This document shows, one piece after another, positions 5,889-25,102 of a stretch of DNA of 25,102 nt. The stretch is from the IMG/VR virus record IMGVR_UViG_3300044293_000677, positions 1-25,102 of that record. One strand, written 5' to 3'. Numbering within the stretch: position 1 is the stretch's first letter; the number at the start of each line of letters is the position of its first letter. The translations under genes were made by a program, and so were the position numbers. The stretch comes from a virus. Under the pieces are notes generated by a model. It ran no database searches. It saw nothing but the letters and a program-made list of their open reading frames with translations, and had not been told where the DNA came from.

Positions 5889-8800
5889 ATGCTATCTAGC
5901 TTTCTAACATCAAAAAATTACAAAAGCCTTAGTGCTAGCTATCTCTATGATGATCAATTAGATTTTCTTAATTATGAAGTTTCGGTCGAAGGTAATCTTA
6001 ATATATTTCTGTCGCCAATTTTCCTGGAAACAAATGATTTTGCAAATAATAATTATAGCTTTTTACATCTAACTAAGCCGTTAAATTTAGCTAATATAAC
6101 AGACTTTAAGACTCCTGAAATATTGAATAAAATTATTTTCTGTACAGTAAGAAATAATTTAGGTAATTATCTTTATTTTACAGATAAAGGTGATGACTTT
6201 ATTACACAAACTATTATATATGATCAGTTAATTAATGGCACCGTTTCCGGGATAAACGATAGTTATTTTTTCGATTTAGATGTAACTGATTCATATACTG
6301 CTAATTTAGGTCATTTATATAATAATGTTCAGTTTTATTTAGCATACAACCCTGCTAATTATAATTTAAACTTTGTTGTTGCAAGCGCGTTTAATGCAAC
6401 CACAGAGCAGACCAAAGATTTTGTTTATGCATTTGATGAAAATACAAACGTTTTGACACTACAGACAATAATTAGAGGTATTACTTATTATGTTATATAT
6501 GATAATACAACTTCTAGATTAGTATTAACAGCGGCAAGCGGCTTTAGATTCAATAGACCAGAAAGATTTTTTAATATTGATAGGTTCAGTTCCCCTGCAG
6601 CTTTAGAGGTAACTAATGATTGGGGTACTTATGAAACTACATATAATCAAAACAATTTAAATATTAACGTTGCAGATAGTTTTTTTGGTATTGATAATAA
6701 CTTTTTAGTACATACAGAATATAATAATCTAGAAGGTTCTACGTTAAAAACAAATATTCTTACTTTAAAGAACCAGCTTAATATTAAAAATCTTCAAGGT
6801 CGCGGAAATGTTTTTTTTCAAGAAATACCAGTAAATTATAGAAATTATAACACTATTTTTTCTGGAAGAAGACAGGAGCAAGGATATGAAAAGCTTCACT
6901 TACAATATGATTGCTACTCTACTCCATACACTTTTGAGCAAAGCAAAACTACATGGTTTCATACACCGCAAAACATGTACCCTTATAAAAGATTAAATAT
7001 TAAAACCTCAAAGCTAGTTGAATCAGGGGCTGTTGCCGGTAATCATCCATTAAAGAGTGATAAAGTATTTAAAAAATTAGGAAACTATCGTTCAACTAGC
7101 AATCAAGGCAATGCAACTAGTGAACAAACAGGTCAGTGGTTTTGCTCTTGGCTTTCCGGTGGTAATACTAAAGATGTTAGACCGGTGTGGGTAGATAGGT
7201 ACTTTAATCCAACTCGAAATACAATGTTCGAGGCTTTAAGTGCATCTGATGGTAATGTTACTTATATACCTTCTTTTGACTGCTATAATTTAAAGTCTGG
7301 TATAGTCGATACACCATCTAGTCTTACTTTTGAGCCTGGCTGCTGGTATGCTTACAGTAGAATAGGTAAAACCGATGCAATTAATTATATAAAAACTCTT
7401 AAACCGACTTTGCAGCAAAAAAATCTCACTGGTTATAATTCAAGTAAAGAGTCGCCACTAGATCCTTTAATTAGTGAAAACTTAACAACATATTCTCTTG
7501 ATGGTCAAAATTATGGCTACATAGATATTGATAATATCAAGCTTAATAATAATACGTTTACAATATGCTTTTGGGCTAACTCACAAGATTGGAGTCGACC
7601 CATGGGATATGAAATTGCTGGTAATTATAATGATTACGGATTAGGTATTTTTAATCATTTTCAGGTTACACCATTTTTAAATTATACAAAAAACGGCTCT
7701 ATATTATTTTATAATACTGATATAGATCTTATTGATACATTTAATAGTGCGTTATCTACTTTTGGTAGCGCAGAATTTGTATTGCGTAGAGATGCACTTA
7801 ATACCTTTCATGTAATTACTGATAAAATGCAATTGGTTGAGTACGATATTCGCGAAATTATAGTCGATGCTACAGATGCTTTGTCTGCAAATAAAAATGA
7901 CGTCAGTATTATATATGCATCCAATGATGAAGCTCGTGGCTATGTATTATATTCGGATAAAAGTCTTAGAGCAGTAGATTTAGTTTCTAATTTACTATAT
8001 CCTATCTCAGCTAATATAGTAATAGGTAAACGCAGCGATGCTAAAGAAGTAGTTAGATCATTAGATGGTAAAATTGTAATACATGATGGGAAGTACAGTA
8101 TGGCGCGTGGAGAAGGGGTATATTTCTTAAGCGGGGGAATAGTTTGTAACTATAATACCAATACTAGCACTTTGTGTAATGTTATTGGAAGTAAAGGTGC
8201 ATATACCTTTTTTAATATTGACAAATATAATAATCTATGGGTAGGGGATGATGAATTTATTGCAAAATTTAATGCGCATCAAGAATTAGTCTTTACCACT
8301 AGTCTAACTGCTACATCTTCATTTTCTTTAAAACCGGTGGATATAAAAAATCTCACGTTTATAGAAACTTTTTATAACGGCAGCCTGAATGAAACTGTTT
8401 TGGTGACTGCAAGCGGGTCTGATACTAGAAATGCAATTATTTTTAAATTAGATTATGATGGTAGTATATTAGAAACATTTAAAATTGACACTTCAGGTAA
8501 TTTAAATCTTAACATTGAGCCGACTAACCATATCTTTAATCAATCTTATTTGAGATATCGCTACGGTGACGGTACGTTTACCTTTAAAACCAGACTTTAT
8601 AATCAATTTAATAATGAAGATATCGAAATACCATCTATAACGGTAAATTCAAATGATCTAGATGCTGGTTATCATCATTTTGCAATAATACTAAACCCCC
8701 CTCAAGGCTACATGAAACTTTATCTAGATGGTGAACTTTATGATACTATAAATTTTGAACAAGCAAAATATAATTATATACCACTAGTTGTAAACAGGCT

Positions 8801-9287
8801 ATTTGTAGGAGCAACACCGTTTTATAACGGTATATTGTTAAGTAAGTTGTTAGATAAGGAAAAAGACTTTAAAACTAGCTATTTTGTAAAAGATTTAGAG
8901 GTTGAAAATATATATATCTATTCAACAGAATTGGATTATTTTGACATTGGTATGCATTATAAAGAAAAAATATATCCAAACAATTTGATTTTTGATATGC
9001 CCTCTGGCCGTAGAAATTTTATGGATGTTGTAACAAGGTACTTTAAACACAAGGTTCCTGGTGCTAAGAGTACTCTATATAATGTCTATATAAATGATAA
9101 TATACTTGATGATACATGTAGGAGTAGATTAGGGGTGGCCATTATAAACAAACTTAAAGAGCTGACACCAGCATATTCCAAACTAAACTCCTTAAATTGG
9201 GTGACTACCTTGCCAAGTCAAAGTGCGGATTATTTACAACCATATTTCCCGGGTAATACACTAACTAATGCGGGACAAAGGTCATAA
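5889..9287 (+). CDS. Large virion/tail-fibre protein with LamG-like domain interrupted by propeller-like repeats
   Basis: The product has 1132 residues and starts at ATG after a 17-base gap. Residues 1-470 show no family I can name. Residues about 535-600 look like the first half of a LamG/concanavalin-type sandwich (YSLDGQNYGYIDI, FTICFWANSQDW). The second half returns only at about 895-990 (YHHFAIILNPP, MKLYLDGELYDTI). Between them lie about 300 residues of short strands ending in Val, Asp and Asn-rich turns (for example YVLYSDKSLRAVDLVSN and NLWVGDDEFIAKFNAHQ), resembling beta-propeller blades. The C-terminus (about 1000-1132) is more helical. LamG domains bind glycans, so I infer a receptor-binding fibre or baseplate decoration. 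The stop overlaps the next start (TAATG). Confidence 0.8.
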   Translation: MLSSFLTSKNYKSLSASYLYDDQLDFLNYEVSVEGNLNIFLSPIFLETNDFANNNYSFLHLTKPLNLANITDFKTPEILNKIIFCTVRNNLGNYLYFTDKGDDFITQTIIYDQLINGTVSGINDSYFFDLDVTDSYTANLGHLYNNVQFYLAYNPANYNLNFVVASAFNATTEQTKDFVYAFDENTNVLTLQTIIRGITYYVIYDNTTSRLVLTAASGFRFNRPERFFNIDRFSSPAALEVTNDWGTYETTYNQNNLNINVADSFFGIDNNFLVHTEYNNLEGSTLKTNILTLKNQLNIKNLQGRGNVFFQEIPVNYRNYNTIFSGRRQEQGYEKLHLQYDCYSTPYTFEQSKTTWFHTPQNMYPYKRLNIKTSKLVESGAVAGNHPLKSDKVFKKLGNYRSTSNQGNATSEQTGQWFCSWLSGGNTKDVRPVWVDRYFNPTRNTMFEALSASDGNVTYIPSFDCYNLKSGIVDTPSSLTFEPGCWYAYSRIGKTDAINYIKTLKPTLQQKNLTGYNSSKESPLDPLISENLTTYSLDGQNYGYIDIDNIKLNNNTFTICFWANSQDWSRPMGYEIAGNYNDYGLGIFNHFQVTPFLNYTKNGSILFYNTDIDLIDTFNSALSTFGSAEFVLRRDALNTFHVITDKMQLVEYDIREIIVDATDALSANKNDVSIIYASNDEARGYVLYSDKSLRAVDLVSNLLYPISANIVIGKRSDAKEVVRSLDGKIVIHDGKYSMARGEGVYFLSGGIVCNYNTNTSTLCNVIGSKGAYTFFNIDKYNNLWVGDDEFIAKFNAHQELVFTTSLTATSSFSLKPVDIKNLTFIETFYNGSLNETVLVTASGSDTRNAIIFKLDYDGSILETFKIDTSGNLNLNIEPTNHIFNQSYLRYRYGDGTFTFKTRLYNQFNNEDIEIPSITVNSNDLDAGYHHFAIILNPPQGYMKLYLDGELYDTINFEQAKYNYIPLVVNRLFVGATPFYNGILLSKLLDKEKDFKTSYFVKDLEVENIYIYSTELDYFDIGMHYKEKIYPNNLIFDMPSGRRNFMDVVTRYFKHKVPGAKSTLYNVYINDNILDDTCRSRLGVAIINKLKELTPAYSKLNSLNWVTTLPSQSADYLQPYFPGNTLTNAGQRS

Positions 9288-15478: not shown

Positions 15479-16153
15479 ATGGCTCTAAAACTATTAGTTG
15501 AAGCACCTTATCCAGAAGATCAGTACGAATACGTTATTGAAGAGAAAAACGGTAATCAACCTAGCACAATGTATATAAAGGGGCCTTATATGCAATGCGA
15601 AGAGGTTAATAAAAATAAACGTGTATATGATTCGCATGAAATGGATAGAGAAGTAAATCGCTACATCGGGGAAATGGTAAAAACAAATAGAAGTATGGGA
15701 GAGTTAAATCATCCCACAACTGCTGAGGTTAATTTAGAGCGTGCCTGTCATCTTGTAACAGAATTACATAGGGAGGGGAATGTATATTTTGGTAAATCAA
15801 AAGTTTTAACAACGCCAATGGGTCAGATTGTTCGTAGTCTTATTAACGACGGTGTTCGAGTAGGTATGAGCTCTCGCGCACTAGGCACATTGCAGGAGAT
15901 GAGCAATGGTGTTAACCGTGTTAAAGATTTTAGACTTGTAGCTGTTGATTGTGTAGCAGATCCGAGTTTCCATAAAGCGTTTGTAAATGGTATTCTCGAG
16001 TCAAAACAATTTGTTGTTAGACAGGATGGTAAATATGAAGAAATTTACGATTCATTTAGCAACAGACTTCGCAATTTACCACGTAAAGATGTTGAATGTT
16101 ATCTTAGGGAACAAGTATTAGATTTTCTAAGCAAGATAAGTAAAGTTTTATGA
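15479..16153 (+). CDS. gp21: Prohead core scaffold protease, T4 gp21-like
   Basis: gp21 is the serine protease that degrades the scaffold and trims capsid proteins inside the prohead. The 224-residue product (T4: 212) aligns along its length. YIKGPYMQCEEVNKNKRVY corresponds to the T4 block YIEGIFMQAEVVNRNKRLY. GELNHP gives the catalytic His78, VGMSSRALG the catalytic Ser131 or 132, and VAVDCVADPS the acidic residue around 157-161. The C-terminus is acidic and basic helix, as expected for a part removed on activation. It lies upstream of its expected substrates gp22 and gp23, and overlaps the next gene as ATGA. Confidence 0.95.
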   Translation: MALKLLVEAPYPEDQYEYVIEEKNGNQPSTMYIKGPYMQCEEVNKNKRVYDSHEMDREVNRYIGEMVKTNRSMGELNHPTTAEVNLERACHLVTELHREGNVYFGKSKVLTTPMGQIVRSLINDGVRVGMSSRALGTLQEMSNGVNRVKDFRLVAVDCVADPSFHKAFVNGILESKQFVVRQDGKYEEIYDSFSNRLRNLPRKDVECYLREQVLDFLSKISKVL

Positions 16154-16602
16154 GTAAACAATTAAATGAATTTGTTCCTGCACTAGCAGCCATTGCTGGT
16201 GAATTAGCTGGAGCTGAAGTTGCCGCGACAGCTGGGGAGGGTCTCGCTGGTAGACTGGCGGCGGGTGCCGCCTCTAAGGCTGTATCAAACAAAGTGGAAG
16301 ACATTTTATCTAAAAAAGGTGAAAATGAGACCGAGGAAGCAGGTGAATCTTGCGAGTGTAAAGAAAATGGGGAGGAAGCTGGTTGTGATTGCTGCAGACA
16401 AAAAGTTGTCCAAAAAAAGCGAGATTTAGGGACATTGAAGAATAAGTATAATATAGAGATGAAAGAACGTATTGAAATTGTCAAATTTCTTAAGCATTTA
16501 AATGAAAAAAATTATGCTGAGGCACATAAATATTTAAAGAACATTATGGATGCTAAACTACAAAAAAGAATAGCCGCCAATAAAGGTGTAAAGGTATTTT
16601 AA
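16150..16602 (+). CDS. Small prohead-core-like protein with a cysteine cluster
   Basis: The product has 150 residues and sits between the prohead protease and the scaffold gene, a region where T4-like phages carry small core proteins (gp67/gp68 in T4, there upstream of 21). The first 45 residues are Ala/Gly-rich and helical (FVPALAAIAGELAGAEVAA). An acidic linker holds five cysteines at 68, 70, 79, 81 and 82 (CEC, then CDCC), unusual for a scaffold part. The C-terminal 60 residues form a basic helical block (KFLKHLNEKNYAEAHKYLKN) of a kind seen in other phage prohead-core proteins. Overlap with gp21 is ATGA, and one base separates its stop from gp22. Assignment as a core protein rests on position and composition more than on motif. 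Confidence 0.6.
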   Translation: MSKQLNEFVPALAAIAGELAGAEVAATAGEGLAGRLAAGAASKAVSNKVEDILSKKGENETEEAGESCECKENGEEAGCDCCRQKVVQKKRDLGTLKNKYNIEMKERIEIVKFLKHLNEKNYAEAHKYLKNIMDAKLQKRIAANKGVKVF

Positions 16603-17550: not shown

Positions 17551-19020
17551 ATGAAATCTATAAGACCCACAACGGCTTATATCGATGAGTCTCGCGCTAA
17601 GGCACTATTAGAAAAGTGGAAGCCAGTATTGGATTACACATCTGATAATGTCAAGCCTATCGGTGACGATCATACTCGTTTGAATACCGCCATGCTCTTG
17701 GAAAACCAAGAATCCTGGTGCATCAACGAGGCTAACGTCGCTGGTGGAACAGGCTCGGTATTCGGTGGTGCATACTCTCCCGCTGGATTGGGCGGTCAAG
17801 GCGGTGCCTTTGGCAACGCTTACCCCCAAGGCGATTGGTATGCTCAAGGCGATACCCGCTTGCCCAAGATCCTCATCCCTATGATTCGTAGAACGTTCCC
17901 CGAGCTAATCACCAATGAAATCGTAGGCGTACAGCCCATGGGCGGTCCAGTAGGACTAGCCTTTGCTCTGCGTTACAAGTACCTCGCTAATCAGCTTGGC
18001 AACGATGGCGTCGATGGTTCCGGTACCAATGCTGGTGCCGCACTATCCAACCCTCAAGCCGCTGCTCAAGCCAAGGAACTCGGTTATCAGTTTCTCGACA
18101 CCCGTTATACGGGTACATCGAGTGCTAAGCTTTCTGGTGGCGACGGCATTGCCGCTTCTCTCTTCCCCTCCATCGGAGTGGATCAAGGTGTTGCGCAAGT
18201 CCTTGCCAACTTTGAGCTCACCGGTAAGATTCCTCAAATCGAAGTTTCGTTTGAGAAAACTGCCGTTGAAGCTGGTACACGTAGACTTGCTGCTCGCTGG
18301 TCGGTAGAGCTCGAGCAAGATCTTAAGAACATGAACGGTATTGATATCGATACTGAGCTCACAAACGCTATGTCGTATGAGCTTCAGGCCGAAATCGACC
18401 GTGAAATGATTGTTCGTATGATTCAAGTCTCGCTAAACGCTGGTCATGGCACAGGATACTCTGTCTGGTCCCCCGCTTCTGCGGACGGTCGCTGGCTGGT
18501 AGAGCGCAATCGCGACTTCTATCAAAGGTTGATCATCGAGGCCAACAGAATTGCTGTTCGTAATCGTCGTGGTGCTGCTAACTTTATCGTTGCAACACCT
18601 CGCGTTTGTGCGATTCTCGAGATGCTTCCCGAGTTTCAATGGGTACCAGTCCAAGGCAATGTCAACACTCAACCTGTTGGTGTAGCTAAGGTTGGTAACC
18701 TAGGTGGTCGTTTCAACGTATACCGTGATACACGCACGGAAGCCCAATTTGAGGGCGGCTTGCGTGGTACGCGTGTAGAGTATGCCCTATTAGGCTACAA
18801 GGGACCAGAGTTTTATGACACTGGTATCATCTACTGCCCATACATCCCGGTTATGGTACAACGTACAATTGGCCCCAATGACTTCAGTCCCCGTGTTGGT
18901 CTCTTGACCCGCTACGGTGTTGTTGATAACATCTTTGGCGCTAACCTGTACTACCACACCATTCTATTGAGCGGTCTCGGAACAGCGTTCACACCTGGCA
19001 CACAGTCTGTGTACTTCTAA
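17551..19020 (+). CDS. gp23: Major capsid protein, T4 gp23-like
   Basis: The 489-residue product (T4: 521) forms the hexamers of the head shell. Family blocks include WKPVLDYTSDN near the N-terminus, RRTFPELITNEIVGVQPMGGPVGL, KTAVEAGTRRLAARWSVELEQDL, then ELQAEIDREMI and a C-terminal YGVVDNIFGANLYYH. A prohead protease site is visible at CINE-ANVAGG, so cleavage after Glu60 would fit the Leu/Ile-x-Glu rule (T4 cuts after Glu65). The gene is notably richer in G+C than those around it: in bases 18001-18060 I count 35 G or C of 60, against 12 of 60 in bases 20041-20100. This fits codon selection for very high expression. A strong terminator follows. Confidence 0.97.
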   Translation: MKSIRPTTAYIDESRAKALLEKWKPVLDYTSDNVKPIGDDHTRLNTAMLLENQESWCINEANVAGGTGSVFGGAYSPAGLGGQGGAFGNAYPQGDWYAQGDTRLPKILIPMIRRTFPELITNEIVGVQPMGGPVGLAFALRYKYLANQLGNDGVDGSGTNAGAALSNPQAAAQAKELGYQFLDTRYTGTSSAKLSGGDGIAASLFPSIGVDQGVAQVLANFELTGKIPQIEVSFEKTAVEAGTRRLAARWSVELEQDLKNMNGIDIDTELTNAMSYELQAEIDREMIVRMIQVSLNAGHGTGYSVWSPASADGRWLVERNRDFYQRLIIEANRIAVRNRRGAANFIVATPRVCAILEMLPEFQWVPVQGNVNTQPVGVAKVGNLGGRFNVYRDTRTEAQFEGGLRGTRVEYALLGYKGPEFYDTGIIYCPYIPVMVQRTIGPNDFSPRVGLLTRYGVVDNIFGANLYYHTILLSGLGTAFTPGTQSVYF

Positions 19021-19141: not shown

Positions 19142-19750
19142 GTGAAATTTAAAGATATATTTATCTTCGAAAAAAGATTGGCAGAATTTTCAGGAGCTCC
19201 ATTTGCTGTATCTACAAGTTGTTGTACACATGCCTTAGAATTGTGCTTTCGAATTCTCAAACCTAGTTATGTAGAGTTTTCATGTCGTACTTATATGGGT
19301 ATCATTATGATGCTCAAAAATCTACACATTCCTTTTCGTATGATTAATGAGCAATGGCAAGGTGAATATAATTTTCATAATAGTCCCATCTGGGATTGTG
19401 CCAGGAAGCTTACTCCTAATATGTATTTGCCTGGATCTTACAAATGTGTTAGTTTTGGTGAAAATAAACCCCTTGATTTAGGTCGTGGAGGCGCAATTTT
19501 ACTGGATAACGAGCAGCATTACAAACTTTTAACCATGTTAAAATTTGATGGAAAAGATGTAAGCTATGAGCCGTGGATCGATCAACAATATTTTGATGTG
19601 GGGTATCACTATAAAATGAATAACCGCGAATGTATTGTTGGTTTAGACCAGCTTAATAAATTTATAGCTAAAGGTGATTTTTCTCATTCTCATTTACCAT
19701 ATAGAGACTGTCGTAGAATGATAGTTAAAGATATGCCTCCGTTTATATGA
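19142..19750 (+). CDS. Minimal DegT/DnrJ/EryC1/StrS-type PLP aminotransferase
   Basis: Members of this family transfer an amino group to nucleotide-linked keto sugars using PLP. The 202-residue product starts at GTG with no clear Shine-Dalgarno sequence. Family landmarks are present in order: FEKRLAEFSGAPFAV, then STSCCTHALELCF (the SGT-AL phosphate-binding turn, altered), IWDCAR (Asp85, which pairs with the PLP pyridine), SFGENKPLDLGRGGAI (Lys109, the PLP-linking lysine, then GRGG), and GYHYKMNNRECIVGLDQL (the family's NYRM block). It is far shorter than the usual ~370 residues: the middle of the PLP domain is condensed and the C-terminal domain is missing. Either this is a compact working version or a binding remnant. 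It overlaps the next glycosyltransferase gene by 4 bases. Confidence 0.8.
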   Translation: MKFKDIFIFEKRLAEFSGAPFAVSTSCCTHALELCFRILKPSYVEFSCRTYMGIIMMLKNLHIPFRMINEQWQGEYNFHNSPIWDCARKLTPNMYLPGSYKCVSFGENKPLDLGRGGAILLDNEQHYKLLTMLKFDGKDVSYEPWIDQQYFDVGYHYKMNNRECIVGLDQLNKFIAKGDFSHSHLPYRDCRRMIVKDMPPFI

Positions 19751-20616
19751 AGATAGATTACGTATTTTCGTTCGCTAATCATTTTTATAAAGATTTGTAT
19801 AAACAGTACTTTAATTGTATTCTTATTAATCCGCGTAATGTTTATGAATTACAGTCTGTAGATACAACAAAAAATATTATATTTTTATTCGGAGATCCAT
19901 TTACTCTTAATTATATTAATAGAACTAATCTTTCTGGTACAAATATAATGTTTTTAAGACGACATGAGTTTTATGAAAATAATTTTGAATTATTACAAAA
20001 AAATCGTTTTAAAATTAAGTACTTTTTTACATTAAATTCTTTTTTTCAAAAAAAGTTAAAAGACCTGTATAATATTGAATCTACAATAGAACGAAATTAT
20101 TTAGATGAGCGATTATGGTCTTACAAAGAAAGAGCGCATGGTAAAGAAATTGCATGGGTAGGTGAATTTCAGCAACGTAAATCCCCTGACTATATTAGTG
20201 AATTGTTATCATATTTTCCTAATTATAATTTTCATTGCGCTATTTCTCCAGGTCCTTCAAAACATCTATATATAGATTTTTTAAAAAACTATGGCCATAA
20301 TAATCTTTTTTTGTATGAAGATATTAATACACAGGAAAAAATGAATGAATGGTTAGATAGTAAGAATTATTTAATAACTACATCTATTTCGGAAGGCTTA
20401 CCTAATAATGTTCTTGAGTCTTTAGCAAAAGGTATAAAGCCAATCATAAGAGATTATCCAGGAAATATTTTTAATAAATTTTCATATAGAAATATATTTC
20501 AATTAAAATCACATTTATTAGGTGAATATTGCTCTAAAGATTATCTACATATTGTTAAAGAAAATTATGGGTTAATGCATTTTTTAAAATTTAGAGATAA
20601 GATTTTAAGAATATGA
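19747..20616 (+). CDS. GT-B fold glycosyltransferase (GT4-like)
   Basis: The product has 289 residues. The N-terminal half is a reduced Rossmann-like domain (FLFGDPFTLNYI, FLRRHEF). The C-terminal half has the donor-binding features of GT4 enzymes: IAWVGEFQQRKSPDYI at about 135-150, and an E-x7-E motif (Glu216 to Glu224) within SISEGLPNNVLESLAKGIKP. The enzyme would move a sugar from a nucleotide donor to an envelope glycan or a phage protein. ATGA overlap with the aminotransferase gene suggests that amino sugar synthesis and transfer are linked. The 3' end overlaps the opposing gene by 12 bases, and no terminator hairpin is visible there. Confidence 0.85.
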   Translation: MKIDYVFSFANHFYKDLYKQYFNCILINPRNVYELQSVDTTKNIIFLFGDPFTLNYINRTNLSGTNIMFLRRHEFYENNFELLQKNRFKIKYFFTLNSFFQKKLKDLYNIESTIERNYLDERLWSYKERAHGKEIAWVGEFQQRKSPDYISELLSYFPNYNFHCAISPGPSKHLYIDFLKNYGHNNLFLYEDINTQEKMNEWLDSKNYLITTSISEGLPNNVLESLAKGIKPIIRDYPGNIFNKFSYRNIFQLKSHLLGEYCSKDYLHIVKENYGLMHFLKFRDKILRI

Positions 20617-21564
20617 TTTTTGTATTTTCATGTCAAATAAATGAGGACAAGCATCTTTAGGACAAATTATTGGATAGTCAAATAGCTTTACTCTAAGATG
20701 AGGATTTTCTTGTAAATTACCAAAATATCTCTGTCTACAACAAGCTCCCCACACAGACCCATCTTCCTTTATATTCATTCCATTTACGCCTGCATTACAT
20801 TTTATTCCCCTGAAATTATGATAATTATTTGCTAGAATCTCTTGACCATCTAGATGTGAAGTTTTTCTCCCATCAAAATACTCAACTTCTATTTTATCAT
20901 GTAAAGTAAAAACCGCACTTTTATTAGATGGTTTATTTTTGATGTATTCTATTTGTTCAAATGTATATTTTGGAGTAAACTGTCTTTTCCAGTTGTTTAC
21001 ATCGAGAATACCTTTATTATTAACACCGATATTACCCATTTTAAAAAATTCTTCTGAAGCCTCTACAGCTCTATCCCAATATTCCGGATCCATTAAAATA
21101 TGAAGTTCTATAAATTTATTTTTATTTAGAAAAATCTTAAAAACTTCTTTAAAATAATCTATATCAGCATATCTTGGATGAAAACTAGGGTAAAGAATAT
21201 CAATTAAGTCTGCTGCTCTATTCCAAAACTCTAAATTGTTACCTAAATTAGTATTCATTGCAACCAAAAAATCTATAGATTTTAAGTAAGACATTACGTC
21301 TTCTACGCCTTTATAAAAACTAGGCTCTCCCCCAGTAAGGGTTATTTTTCTTTGAGGCACTTGACGTATAAAAATATTATCATGATATAAATTTTTAAAA
21401 AAATTAATATATATATCAGAAGGAATATGTGGAAACAAACCTTTATGAAGAACAGGAGGACAATAATTACATCTCTGATTACATAGATTATTAATAACAA
21501 AATTAATACTAAAAGCATTATTTTTTATGCTTTTTATTATAGGTTTATGTATTGGTAATTGCAT
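20605..21564 (-). CDS. Radical SAM enzyme with SPASM-like C-terminus (third of three)
   Basis: The product has 319 residues. I start it at ATG 21564 because GGAGG (21572-21576) lies 7 bases upstream; the GTG at 21570 would be only 1 base away. The SAM-cluster motif C-x3-C-x2-C is Cys28, Cys32, Cys35 (NLCNQRCNYC), followed by the SAM-binding LTGGEPSFY. The C-terminus has further cysteines (KCNAG, GACCRQRYFGN, CPKDAC) arranged like a SPASM or twitch domain, which holds extra 4Fe-4S clusters. Family members oxidise peptides, sugars or other small substrates by radical chemistry; the substrate here is unknown. It ends the minus-strand operon and overlaps the previous gene. Confidence 0.9.
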   Translation of the reverse strand: MQLPIHKPIIKSIKNNAFSINFVINNLCNQRCNYCPPVLHKGLFPHIPSDIYINFFKNLYHDNIFIRQVPQRKITLTGGEPSFYKGVEDVMSYLKSIDFLVAMNTNLGNNLEFWNRAADLIDILYPSFHPRYADIDYFKEVFKIFLNKNKFIELHILMDPEYWDRAVEASEEFFKMGNIGVNNKGILDVNNWKRQFTPKYTFEQIEYIKNKPSNKSAVFTLHDKIEVEYFDGRKTSHLDGQEILANNYHNFRGIKCNAGVNGMNIKEDGSVWGACCRQRYFGNLQENPHLRVKLFDYPIICPKDACPHLFDMKIQKSYS

Positions 21565-22354
21565 GGTCACACCTCCAACATAAAGTACCAGATTTATTAT
21601 TATTTAACGAATCTATAATATGTTTATATTCCTTTGAATTAACAATATCCTCATATGTATTTTCTAATAAATTTCCTAGTCTGTGCTCTAAATTCCAATC
21701 CATACAACAAAGATATACATCCCCATTAGGAAGAAGTACATGTTGTTTTATTTTGTTTGCTGCACATTTTATGGTTTTATTTGCAGTATTATCAATTTTT
21801 TTAAAACCATTAACGTTTCCAGCTCTACTATTCCAGTTGGAATAATCAGGCTCTAAAAAATAAACTTTTCCTTGAGTTTTTTCTAATAAAGGTGCTATCA
21901 TAGGATGAGGGGTTTTTCCAAAAAAAACAATAGCATCTATATTTTTTAAACTTTTTAAACATTTTTCAATATTTTGAATATATGTTTCATTTACTACTAA
22001 ATTCATTGAATTATCTTGTACTGGTAAATGTAGTGTAATTTTATTATATACTTGATTTAAGATGGTATTAATATTATCTTGAGATGCCTTATACAATGTC
22101 GTGGATATTTTTGTATAATGTCCTCTCTCTTTACACAGAGCTACCATTTTATAGCAATCTTTATGAAAAAAAGGTTCAGAAAACCCTGTAAAATGAATTC
22201 TAGTTAAAACTGGTAATTTGTTTATAATAATATTAAATTCTTCTAAAGATAACTTTTTTTTATTAGAATTATATTTAAACAAAAATGAATCTTGAGGGCA
22301 ATAAGAACAGTTAATACTGCATCCAGCAATAGTAGTTATTTCTAATGCATCCAT
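21545..22354 (-). CDS. Radical SAM enzyme with twitch/SPASM-like C-terminus (second of three)
   Basis: The product has 269 residues, short for the family. The cluster motif is almost at the N-terminus: Cys12, Cys16, Cys19 (GCSINCSYC), with no extra domain before it. FTGFSEPFFHKD is the GGEP-type SAM-binding motif, in the SEP form common to glycan-cluster members. The C-terminus (KCAAN ... GDVYLCCMDWN ... RLGNLLENTYEDI, then CWRC) has five cysteines in a twitch/SPASM-like arrangement. It starts at ATG three bases past the previous stop, and its 3' end overlaps the next radical SAM gene. The substrate is unknown; the context points to sugar or glycan-related chemistry. Confidence 0.9.
   Translation of the reverse strand: MDALEITTIAGCSINCSYCPQDSFLFKYNSNKKKLSLEEFNIIINKLPVLTRIHFTGFSEPFFHKDCYKMVALCKERGHYTKISTTLYKASQDNINTILNQVYNKITLHLPVQDNSMNLVVNETYIQNIEKCLKSLKNIDAIVFFGKTPHPMIAPLLEKTQGKVYFLEPDYSNWNSRAGNVNGFKKIDNTANKTIKCAANKIKQHVLLPNGDVYLCCMDWNLEHRLGNLLENTYEDIVNSKEYKHIIDSLNNNKSGTLCWRCDHAITNT
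21572..21576 (-). promoter_or_regulatory. Shine-Dalgarno sequence that sets the start of the third radical SAM gene
   Basis: GGAGG on the minus strand, inside the 3' end of the preceding gene, 7 bases from ATG 21564. It is the clearest ribosome binding site in the minus-strand operon and favours that ATG over the upstream GTG. Confidence 0.75.
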
Positions 22355-22357
22355 AAA

Positions 22358-23251
22358 TTAATAGTTAATAACGTTATTTCTACTTAATATTCTTCTATCA
22401 ATTGGACAAACTTTACAAATATTATTTTGCTTTCTATCTCTTAATATTTGAGCAAAAAAATCGTTTGATTCTTTAGAATTAAATATTTCATTAATAGTTT
22501 GTTTGTTTGCGTCTCCTATTAATATCTGTCCTTGATAATCATGACAACATGGATTACATTCTCCATTCCAATTTATAACAAATGAACCGGAAAAAATAGA
22601 ACAACTATTAGGTATAGCTTCTATAACTTTTTGTTGTGTCTGTTTATTTATTTCATTAGTTTCGTTAAATTCTACCATATTAAAGTTGGGCAGTTTATAG
22701 TATATATTATCGTATAAACCTAAAAATTTGTTCTTAATATTAGTAAGATCATCGGAATTGTAAGAAAATAAAACTGTTTGTATTTTAATTTTTGGACGAG
22801 ATTGAATATTTTTATATTTTTCAAAAAAATATTTTAACCCATCATAAATTTTATCTAAATCTACACCTTTTCTATATTTTGCGTTCAATTCTTTAGTTGA
22901 TCCATCAATACTCACAACACACTCATTCAATTTACTTTTGGCTAATAAATCTATTTCCTCTTGTTTGTAGAAAACTAATCCGTTTGTAGATGTTCTATGA
23001 TAAGAATTTTTTGGTATCATTTCGTATAGCTGAAACCACTTGGGATGTAAAAAGGGCTCTCCGTAATTAAAAGACACTATTTGTAAATTGTAATCTAAGC
23101 TCTTAACCTCATTCATTATTTTTCGAAACAATTCAATAGAAATAAACCCCTTTTTTCTTTCTAAAGAATCTGAGCCTGTGGGGCAAAGAGGACATTTAGC
23201 ATTACATGTATTAGTAAGCTCAATCATAATAGCACTAAGACGTCTATTCAT
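22358..23251 (-). CDS. Radical SAM enzyme with SPASM-like C-terminus (first of three)
   Basis: I start this at ATG 23251; a TTG at 23266 would only add five residues. The product has 297 residues. The cluster motif is Cys16, Cys20, Cys23 (ELTNTCNAKCPLCPTG), a context typical of MoaA/PqqE-type and glycan-cluster radical SAM proteins. VSFNYGEPFLHPKW is the SAM-binding motif. The C-terminus carries several cysteines (SCSIFSG, ECNPCCHDYQG, NNICKVCPIDRR) and a LIGDANKQTINEIFNS segment matching the usual SPASM pattern, so an auxiliary Fe-S cluster is likely. The 5' end overlaps the glycosyltransferase gene by 8 bases. The substrate cannot be read from sequence. Confidence 0.9.
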   Translation of the reverse strand: MNRRLSAIMIELTNTCNAKCPLCPTGSDSLERKKGFISIELFRKIMNEVKSLDYNLQIVSFNYGEPFLHPKWFQLYEMIPKNSYHRTSTNGLVFYKQEEIDLLAKSKLNECVVSIDGSTKELNAKYRKGVDLDKIYDGLKYFFEKYKNIQSRPKIKIQTVLFSYNSDDLTNIKNKFLGLYDNIYYKLPNFNMVEFNETNEINKQTQQKVIEAIPNSCSIFSGSFVINWNGECNPCCHDYQGQILIGDANKQTINEIFNSKESNDFFAQILRDRKQNNICKVCPIDRRILSRNNVINY

Positions 23252-23975
23252 ATATAGGGTGAACAAATTTATATTTCTGTAATTTTTCTTTTGCTTCTTT
23301 ATGGTCTATAAACTCGTTATAAAAATAGCGATTTCTCCTTTTCATATAAATTATAGCATAAAAATCAGGATGATCATATAATTCTATATTAAGATCTTTA
23401 CATGCAATACTCATTAATAATTCTGTAGATAAATTATATTCTCCTGGAAGCCCGTGTGCAAGGTATTGTTTTATTCTACTAATTAGAAAATTATCATCTT
23501 CGAAGTATTTAGTAGAGTTAAAAGTTTTAAAAATATTAGATCCAATACCGAATATTCCATTTTGTATAAATTCCGGTCTTATTAAGTTAATAAGCGATTT
23601 TCCATCATAAATTTTTCTATTTATAGTTGATTTAAATAAAGTACCGAATACAGTAGATTTTAATTTGCTAGAAAAATCTATTACGCCTCTAACTCTTGAA
23701 TCGGGATCAGCCTTTATTATAACATCCGTGTTCATATCGCTATACACAGTTATTATATTTCTGAAGAAAGCACCAGGCGTTTTATTGGAGTATGAATGTT
23801 TAAAAAGATAATAATTTAATTTATTTTTACTGCAATACTTTTTTATCTCTGAATCATCATTGCCATCGCTCATAATAGATATAGGACTATCTGGGTAATG
23901 TATCTGTATTTGCGGCACACTTATTTTTAACAATTCAAAGTCTTTGTAAACCGGAATAATAAAACCTACATTCAT
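23244..23975 (-). CDS. GT-A fold glycosyltransferase (GT2-like)
   Basis: The product has 243 residues. The N-terminus FIIPVYKDFELLKISV is the nucleotide-binding start of GT2-type enzymes. After SIMSDGNDD comes VIIKADPDSRVRG with Asp90-Pro-Asp92, a DxD-type metal and nucleotide-sugar site. FGIGSNIFKTFN and EDDNFLISRI could form the acceptor side, with EDDN near the usual catalytic-base position. No membrane segments are visible, so a soluble cytoplasmic enzyme is expected. The start overlaps the previous stop as ATGA, and its own end overlaps the first radical SAM gene. The acceptor is unknown. Confidence 0.8.
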   Translation of the reverse strand: MNVGFIIPVYKDFELLKISVPQIQIHYPDSPISIMSDGNDDSEIKKYCSKNKLNYYLFKHSYSNKTPGAFFRNIITVYSDMNTDVIIKADPDSRVRGVIDFSSKLKSTVFGTLFKSTINRKIYDGKSLINLIRPEFIQNGIFGIGSNIFKTFNSTKYFEDDNFLISRIKQYLAHGLPGEYNLSTELLMSIACKDLNIELYDHPDFYAIIYMKRRNRYFYNEFIDHKEAKEKLQKYKFVHPIYE

Positions 23976-24895
23976 ATTTCTAGAAGTTCTTTAAATATAA
24001 CGTTATTGTGTTGTCTGGCTTTATTTTGTAATAAAGCAAGTTCATCTATTAGTTTATTGTATTTGTCTTTATTTTGAAAAGCTTCTTCTATATCGCTATT
24101 ATAAAGACTTAATTGTAATAATCCATTATGGCTTAGGAAATCTGTATTTGCAATCAATGGAATTTTATGTGCTATACTATGTGTCAATGATTCTGATGTT
24201 TTTATGCTAGTATATTCCCTCTTATCACAGTCATAAGGAATTAATAATACCTTGAGTTTAGAAATTTCAGTAAAAAATATTGTATGGTTACAAAGATCTA
24301 TAGCCTTGACTCTATCGTTGTTTATATATTTGGCAATAGAGTTTGAACCTTCTCCAATTAAGTGAAAAATATATTCTAATTTTTTTGTTGCAAAATTAAT
24401 AAAATCTATAGATATTTTATTTTCAAAAAAACGCGAAGTAACACCTATAATATTTTTTCTATTATTTTGTAGAAGTATAGGAGACTCTGTTTGATAGAAA
24501 TATCTCTTACTATACGGTTTTTCATATATACCGTTTGCAATATTTTTAGCAAACGGAAAGTATTTCTTAATTATATTCTCTTTTAGATGTAAAGGTCTGT
24601 GATGTACAAAGATAAAATCACATTTTTGTCTAAAGACAGGATCATAATGATAGCCGGGAATTATATTGTTAGAATCTATGGCGGTAATGACTATAGCTTT
24701 TTCGAAACAAACAGCTGTTGTTAAAGGAATTTTATATTCACTGCATAGTTCTTTTAAATTATATTTGTCAGTTGGATTATTATAGTAAATAATTGATGAT
24801 AAATTTAAAAACTTTAGAGTTTGATAAATTGATAAAGCAGTTGCATGATGATATTCTGTATTAACTATTATTCCAACTTTATCGGTACTTTTCAT
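23972..24895 (-). CDS. GT-B-like glycosyltransferase
   Basis: The product has 307 residues. The N-terminal half starts with VGIIVNTEYHHATALSIY, a Rossmann-like opening, and has FVHHRPLHLKENI, where the acceptor side of GT-B enzymes usually starts. The C-terminal half has IGVTSRFFENK, FHLIGEGSNSIAKYI and REYTSIKTSESLTHSIAHK, which contains an E-x7-E pair (Glu227 to Glu235) followed by IPLIAN, as in GT4-type donor sites. Similarity is weaker than for the plus-strand glycosyltransferase. The 5' end overlaps the GT8-like gene by 17 bases, and the 3' end overlaps the GT2-like gene by 4 bases. Confidence 0.7.
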   Translation of the reverse strand: MKSTDKVGIIVNTEYHHATALSIYQTLKFLNLSSIIYYNNPTDKYNLKELCSEYKIPLTTAVCFEKAIVITAIDSNNIIPGYHYDPVFRQKCDFIFVHHRPLHLKENIIKKYFPFAKNIANGIYEKPYSKRYFYQTESPILLQNNRKNIIGVTSRFFENKISIDFINFATKKLEYIFHLIGEGSNSIAKYINNDRVKAIDLCNHTIFFTEISKLKVLLIPYDCDKREYTSIKTSESLTHSIAHKIPLIANTDFLSHNGLLQLSLYNSDIEEAFQNKDKYNKLIDELALLQNKARQHNNVIFKELLEI

Positions 24896-25102
24896 ATAAA
24901 TTTTTAAGATGTTTTAAAATTTTATCTGGGTCTTGACCAGATTTAACTAACAATTTAGGAACAAAATCGCTAAAACATTTTTTTGTATCTTCGTAAAACC
25001 AAGGTTTAAGAGGACCATGAAAATGCAGAATTGATATATGATTTAAATTCTCCGTGGTCACTTCACTAGATACTGTATTATATTTTTCAGGAAGAAAAAA
25101 TA
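24879..25102 (-). CDS. GT8-like glycosyltransferase, C-terminal end (partial)
   Basis: The frame is open to the right edge of the window; GTG 25061 is inside the gene, not its start. The visible end reads LPEKYN, then ILHFHGPLKPW, matching the LP-x2-YN and H-x2-G-x2-KPW signatures of GT8 (glycogenin/LgtC-type) enzymes, in which the His and KPW line the metal and nucleotide-sugar site. About 45 residues follow, ending in a basic helix. LgtC-type enzymes add galactose or glucose to LPS. It is the first visible gene of the minus-strand operon, so the promoter lies beyond the window. Confidence 0.8.
   Translation of the reverse strand, partial: FFLPEKYNTVSSEVTTENLNHISILHFHGPLKPWFYEDTKKCFSDFVPKLLVKSGQDPDKILKHLKNLYEKYR

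Follow-up and report, generated by a model that had tools for sequence, protein, structure and literature searches.

A tail-fibre-linked cassette of radical SAM and glycosyltransferase genes in T4-like phages

Here we describe a gene cassette in a fragment of a T4-like phage, IMG/VR record IMGVR_UViG_3300044293_000677 (positions 1 to 25,102; the whole 25.1-kb stretch is called the window), in which three radical S-adenosylmethionine (SAM) genes stand in tandem with glycosyltransferase genes beside the gp23 capsid gene. The plus strand of the window carries baseplate wedge, tail, head-closure, prohead protease, scaffold and gp23 capsid genes, and directly after gp23 a DegT homologue and the glycosyltransferase gene GT1 (19142-20616, +). 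Facing this pair on the minus strand are the radical SAM genes rS3, rS2 and rS1, then GTb, GTa and a GT8 gene truncated by the contig end. Packing within the cassette is tight, with gene overlaps of 4-26 nt (26 nt between rS3 and rS2) and a single gap, the 3 nt between rS2 and rS1. Its G + C content (window 19142-25102) is 27%, versus 35% in the upstream structural genes.

Three radical SAM genes

The three genes are rS1 (22358..23251, minus strand; 297 amino acids from its ATG), rS2 (21545..22354, minus strand; 269 amino acids) and rS3 (20605..21570, minus strand; 321 amino acids). All three encode a CxxxCxxC motif and a SAM motif: CNAKCPLC (C16/C20/C23) with GEP at 64-66 in rS1, CSINCSYC (C12/C16/C19) with SEP at 59-61 in rS2, and CNQRCNYC (C30/C34/C37) with GGEP at 80-83 in rS3. 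Relatives without exception keep the cluster cysteines and the SAM-motif glutamate. Pfam matches were found for rS1 (Radical_SAM 6.5e-15, SPASM 6e-13) and rS2 (Radical_SAM 6e-7, SPASM 5e-12); rS3 matched Radical_SAM under the curated cut-off (3e-5) and had no match to the Pfam SPASM model. By these motifs and matches, and for rS3 also by its AlphaFold2 model, all three belong to the radical SAM superfamily.

The genes are intact and under purifying selection. The ratio of nonsynonymous to synonymous substitution rates (dN/dS) between phages was 0.03-0.20 wherever dS was computable, which identifies them as selected genes and not chance frames. rS1 and rS2 are about 21% identical (3e-6), and neither is significantly matched by rS3, so that tandem duplication of one gene is ruled out and three subfamilies have been brought side by side. 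A preliminary description, made from the sequence of the window, had reported three tandem, packed and distinct radical SAM genes, and the motifs, substitution ratios and identities bear this out. Viperin and other defence proteins were rejected as identities: only the N-terminal core matched (36 bits for rS3, 22 bits for rS2), and rS3 scored 33.5 bits with the NCBIfam viperin model against a cut-off of 180, the mark of a pVip being a full-length match above that cut-off.

In profile searches against the PDB, the closest solved structure of both rS1 and the rS2 family was BtrN (1.7e-13 each), the 2-deoxy-scyllo-inosamine dehydrogenase of the butirosin pathway (PDB 4m7s/4m7t), whose substrate is a sugar-like aminocyclitol and which likewise combines a radical SAM core with a C-terminal twitch domain; the match spans both parts. 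BtrN C169/C187/C232/C235, reported as its auxiliary-cluster ligands, align four out of four with rS1 C217/C235/C279/C282 and with rS2 C197/C216/C259/C262. BtrN R152, reported to contact the substrate alcohol, aligns with rS2 R177, which is unchanged in every aligned viral and cellular rS2 homologue, as are the core and auxiliary cysteines; rS1 differs in that its counterpart of R152 is missing in this alignment. As a correspondence between aligned residues, R177/R152 is only suggestive of the dehydrogenase activity of BtrN. The similarity of BtrN to rS1 and rS2 is also remote (E about 2e-13, low identity), and unlike BtrN the two are set in a phage operon with glycosyltransferases. The rS1 profile additionally matches BlsE, a sugar-nucleoside decarboxylase.

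A domain was called twitch (BtrN-type) when the four cysteines needed to ligate a single auxiliary cluster fully lay at the positions of BtrN 169/187/232/235; that the ligands are four cysteines is confirmed in PMC6231123. rS1 and rS2 have this arrangement by exact alignment, and rS3, with different cysteine spacing, is twitch-like only. The SPASM pattern has seven cysteines, CX9-15GX4C-gap-CX2CX5CX3C-gap-C (PMC6231123). rS1 and rS2 have CX9-15GX4C and the final CX2C without the CX5CX3C extension, and because the seven-cysteine pattern is incomplete we class them as twitch enzymes, although the Pfam SPASM model matches both. Of the earlier label 'SPASM-like', the cysteine-rich C-termini stand; the auxiliary clusters number one (twitch), not those of the seven-cysteine SPASM set.

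rS3 is a separate twitch-like subfamily, whose C-terminal cysteines C258/C278/C303/C308 are invariant and, in the alignment, spaced differently from the BtrN type. Its AlphaFold2 model (predicted local distance difference test, pLDDT, 75.7) resembles several radical SAM proteins of uncultured phages at template modelling (TM) scores of 0.73-0.76. Structure prediction had been proposed as a check for auxiliary sites; it returned radical SAM folds, but with solved structures (SkfB, SuiB, BlsE, MoaA, EpeE and SpeY, also TigE) the TM scores were only 0.3-0.5, and the modelled fold does not separate sugar from peptide chemistry. The best NCBIfam match of rS3, a weak one, was the peptide maturase WgkB. 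Among 398 cellular genomes of the phylum of the Beijerinckiaceae genome G022, two held an rS3 match past threshold, one of them over nearly full length, and none of about 590 genomes in two other phyla did, so that no clear donor emerges.

A conserved cassette with exchangeable modules

IMG/VR scans recovered the locus in 13 other viral contigs, or about ten distinct phages, as some contigs are near-duplicates. Separate searches with the individual proteins, the neighbour check suggested by the preliminary description, gave a recurring set of partners in all 13. The trio rS1-rS2-rS3 is present in eight of them, once with protein-identical genes and otherwise at 74-84% identity (62% for rS3 of L011); the other five (L022, L042, L041, L024 and L025) have rS2-rS3 without rS1, and hence the three enzymes need not act in series. 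With genes found in only part of the lineages in brackets, the common order is fibre gene, geneA, (GT8), GTa, (GTb), (rS1), antisense sulfotransferase-like gene, rS2 and rS3, convergent with GT1 and (DegT). Tail-fibre gene, geneA, GTa, rS2, rS3 and GT1 are constant, and rS1, GT8 and GTb are either present together or all absent. The sulfotransferase-like gene (L005:5127-5822(-) and equivalents) is optional as well: in relatives it lies between rS1 and rS2 or between GTa and rS2, always on the opposite strand, L042 retains a 35-amino-acid match, and the window lacks it, with no remnant beyond the shared overlap with the end of rS1. Its assignment is weak (Pfam E 0.048 for the clade gene itself).

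Between lineages, most structural proteins share 75-96% identity (50-67% for one small head protein), whereas cassette proteins share 31-65% in the lineages without rS1. Between L042 and the window, gp23 is 96% identical, rS3 63% and GTa 36%. Hence the cassette is either swapped between phages or diverges far more quickly than the virion backbone. It stays linked to the fibre gene in every contig that extends to that flank, also in L009 and L011, where the capsid gene is not its neighbour. These observations support a conserved multi-gene unit rather than a chance grouping. Neither of the outcomes named beforehand as arguing against such a unit was found: the searches returned no characterised pathway, and within the clade the genes are not scattered singly.

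GT1 (19747..20616, plus strand), which converges with rS3 and is present in all lineages, matches glycosyltransferase group 1 (Pfam 2.9e-7). GTa (23972..24895, minus strand), also in all lineages examined, has no Pfam match; its AlphaFold2 model (pLDDT 85.4) has a GT-B fold, with Foldseek matches to UDP-GlcNAc 2-epimerases and Gtf3/GtfC glycosyltransferases (fold E down to 5e-7), the sequence match to the latter being weak (E 0.1). GTb (23244..23975, minus strand) is a putative GT-A-type glycosyltransferase by alignment, gained or lost along with rS1 and GT8. Its sole sign of function is a DPD (DxD-type) motif within KADPDS, and it has neither a Pfam family match nor a credible match among PDB sequences. 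The GT8 gene is cut by the contig end, leaving a C-terminal end of 73 amino acids (24879..25100, minus strand; Pfam 0.0011 for the fragment); its full-length counterpart of 259 amino acids (L004:2884-3663) matches GT8 at 3.2e-25. Of the three glycosyltransferases previously proposed on this strand, GT8 is thus confirmed through its counterpart, though only as a fragment in the window; GTa is supported by its GT-B-fold model, and GTb by its motif only. geneA has a DxD motif (FWxDxDV) and no credible match among PDB sequences, and is judged by inspection only to be a GT-A transferase.

The short DegT/DnrJ/EryC1 aminotransferase homologue (19142..19750, plus strand; Pfam 6.1e-16) keeps the aligned pyridoxal phosphate (PLP) lysine and lacks about the last 120 residues of a fold-type I PLP enzyme of some 360 amino acids; its length of 202 amino acids is conserved in several phages. 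The convergent aminotransferase/glycosyltransferase pair described before corresponds to this short DegT homologue and GT1. In two unrelated viruses rS3 has comparable company: the relative in the 121-kb virus of L044 stands beside geneA and near a sulfotransferase, and L083 has an epimerase, a full-length DegT and an rS3-like gene in a row.

The phage is assigned to the T4-like myoviruses by gp23 (17551..19020, plus strand; Pfam 4.3e-89, PHROG 1.7e-83) and by T4-type head genes, with PHROG matches for prohead protease, head closure and baseplate wedge. The T4 late-promoter octamer TATAAATA is rarer than expected (2 observed, 9 expected) and thus uninformative on expression. A cyanophage identity by psbA was rejected, psbA (PF00124) being absent from six viral records (five of the clade and that of L044), all possibly incomplete.

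Several neighbouring or related genes are recorded for their own sake. A small head-region protein (window 16150-16602) has a cysteine-rich stretch, CECKENGEEAGCDCC, that its relatives lack. L008:12848-13933 (also L041 and L022), located between gp23 and the convergent glycosyltransferase pair, encodes a 361-amino-acid protein whose N-terminus is fibre-like and whose LCIB-type carbonic anhydrase domain (Pfam 3e-23) is possibly virion-borne; other relatives hold only a 71-amino-acid N-terminal part. A 121-kb relative (G009) has a second radical SAM gene elsewhere (L095:6222-9464), with an N-terminal cysteine-rich domain; its neighbours are small genes, one of them dioxygenase-like. A further phage has rS1-like radical SAM genes (L045:2407-4857 and 7983-8918) that alternate with PP-loop (SGG)-looking genes, possibly as a different modification pathway.

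Proposed function and rival readings

Cellular relatives of rS2, most of them at 26-36% identity, were found at 34 loci from many phyla; proteins of the rS2 type are encoded by other phages too. The commonest families among 98 neighbouring proteins were GT2, SAM-dependent methyltransferases, GDP-mannose dehydratases/epimerases, GT1, GT10, FkbM and sulfotransferases. Glycosyltransferases make up a few per cent of genes at most, and judged against this general knowledge, not a matched background tally, the cellular relatives sit in polysaccharide clusters. At one locus (L078, Gemmatimonadota) rS2 is accompanied by a GT2-like gene, a sulfotransferase-like gene and a relative of geneA; neither rS1 nor rS3 was found near the cellular rS2 loci.

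Starting from the observed gene set, fibre linkage, radical SAM plus twitch architecture, conservation and module structure, we lean, with little more than even confidence, towards a recombining, tail-fibre-linked glycan-tailoring cassette, in which the radical SAM enzymes alter a sugar that the glycosyltransferases attach to a fibre or other virion protein. With a 5'-deoxyadenosyl radical and a single, fully ligated auxiliary cluster each, the constant rS2 and the optional rS1 would remove a hydrogen from a sugar carbon, which they would then oxidise (alcohol to ketone, like BtrN) or epimerise. rS3 might carry out a further C-H modification on the same glycan; where present, the short DegT could aminate the keto group and the sulfotransferase-like antisense protein could add sulfate. 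geneA, GTa and GT1, with GT8 and GTb alongside rS1, would build and attach the sugar. Cytoplasmic glycosylation of the acceptor, a fibre of the phage itself or a different virion protein, would precede assembly and could alter adsorption or shield the virion. Phage fibres are a more likely acceptor than host glycans, given that the cassette is tied to the fibre gene, its enzymes have no predicted transmembrane segment, no flippase or polyprenol machinery was recognised in it, and GTa folds like the adhesin-glycosylating Gtf3/GtfC. More tentatively still, and with distinct doubt, we suggest that the distinct twitch radical SAM enzymes make a non-host sugar for the phage's own fibres and that modules (rS1 + GT8 + GTb, DegT, sulfotransferase) are swapped to diversify the virion glycan. 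The sugar-altering radical pathway of the preliminary description is in keeping with the conserved unit, the BtrN likeness, the polysaccharide-cluster relatives and the L083 gene row; the three enzymes need not form a single three-step pathway, rS1 being absent from five of the 13 contigs.

Several findings weigh against the cassette being a glycan-tailoring system. BtrN is among the few solved short twitch enzymes and may rank first by default, and twitch/SPASM similarity predicts the reaction poorly, according to PMC6231123. The fold matches of rS3 are mainly maturases of ribosomally synthesised and post-translationally modified peptides (RiPPs), with BlsE and MoaA besides, all at the low TM scores given above. 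The best cellular rS3 relative, in one of the 398 genomes, adjoins genes for HlyD and a C39-peptidase ABC exporter, and DegT is missing in three lineages (L011/L043, L022 and L042).

That gene context, the weak WgkB match and the resemblance of the rS3 model to SkfB, SuiB, TigE and EpeE would suit an improbable alternative, in which the substrate of the radical SAM enzymes, and chiefly of rS3, is a virion protein itself, altered as by RiPP maturases (through a side-chain cross-link, epimerisation or the like) and also glycosylated by the transferases of the cassette. However, the non-peptide enzymes BlsE, MoaA and SpeY score alike against the rS3 model, viral rS3 relatives neighbour sugar genes, Pfam revealed no RiPP-recognition domain, and no precursor peptide was noticed. 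A serious rival, unlikely as we judge it, is that the same cassette acts on the host envelope polysaccharide (lipopolysaccharide or capsule), the receptor change blocking superinfection or re-adsorption of progeny to debris. The polysaccharide clusters around cellular rS2 homologues agree with it, as does the variation of the cassette along with the fibre gene, as in a receptor arms race; GT8 is moreover the most represented family in pelagimyophages, which are argued to modify the host O-chain (PMC7029224). Yet Pfam families and membrane-segment prediction revealed neither a flippase nor a polyprenol transferase nor a membrane protein in the cassette, and its place among late genes, next to those for fibre and capsid, suits virion assembly at least equally.

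A role in DNA modification, with a hypermodified and glycosylated base as protection from restriction, is very improbable. T4-like phages are generally known to glycosylate their DNA, and radical SAM enzymes are thought to be used in some phage base hypermodification, but the genes stand among late structural genes next to that for the fibre, away from nucleotide-metabolism genes, their glycosyltransferases belong to the GT8 and GT1 families or have a GT-B fold near adhesin glycosyltransferases, and the cellular rS2 neighbours are polysaccharide genes.

Comparison with known phage systems

Since 2010, radical SAM genes of phages have figured in the literature as auxiliary genes without an explanation. 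The statement that no described phage system has such a gene set was too strong, given those of the Campylobacter phages and of pelagimyophages. The Campylobacter myophages CP220 and CPt10 carry 11 and 12 radical SAM genes (PMC2853527), and phage F379 has several in a single cluster that also holds an amidinotransferase and an annotated nucleoside diphosphate-sugar transferase; like the window, these phages have radical SAM genes in tandem. rS1 has tblastn matches in these phages and rS3 matches CP21/IBB35 folds, but the identity to rS1 is about 26%, rS2 has no match there, and the F379 cluster has the amidinotransferase in place of DegT, with no GT8/GT-B set annotated. In Synechococcus phage DSL-LC02 (OR032571), an rS2 relative (32%) lies beside a mannosyltransferase between tail-fibre genes; it differs in being a single rS2-type domain fused to FkbM, with no rS1 or rS3 match in the stretch compared. 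The gene in question (L012:10636-12789) is annotated only as FkbM methyltransferase, its C-terminal radical SAM plus twitch half being homologous to rS2.

Also related are the pelagimyophages, T4-like phages reported in 2020 to gain radical SAM cassettes in a variable, glycosyltransferase-rich tail-fibre/host-recognition region, with mostly GT8 glycosyltransferases; the available part of that report gives gene content only, with neither a conserved rS1-rS2-rS3 order nor a twitch analysis (PMC7029224). Virion glycosylation itself is described for mycobacteriophages in work cited in PMC12619734. The locus is now defined by its module swapping, by conserved partners, by its tie to the fibre gene, by a structural relative with a sugar-like ring as substrate and by cellular relatives in polysaccharide clusters, which turns a 'metabolic gene of unknown use' into the testable claim that radical chemistry diversifies virion or host-surface glycans. 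As far as the available parts of these sources extend, related phage gene clusters are known, and the conserved rS1/rS2/rS3 modules, the twitch assignment and the link to BtrN are new.

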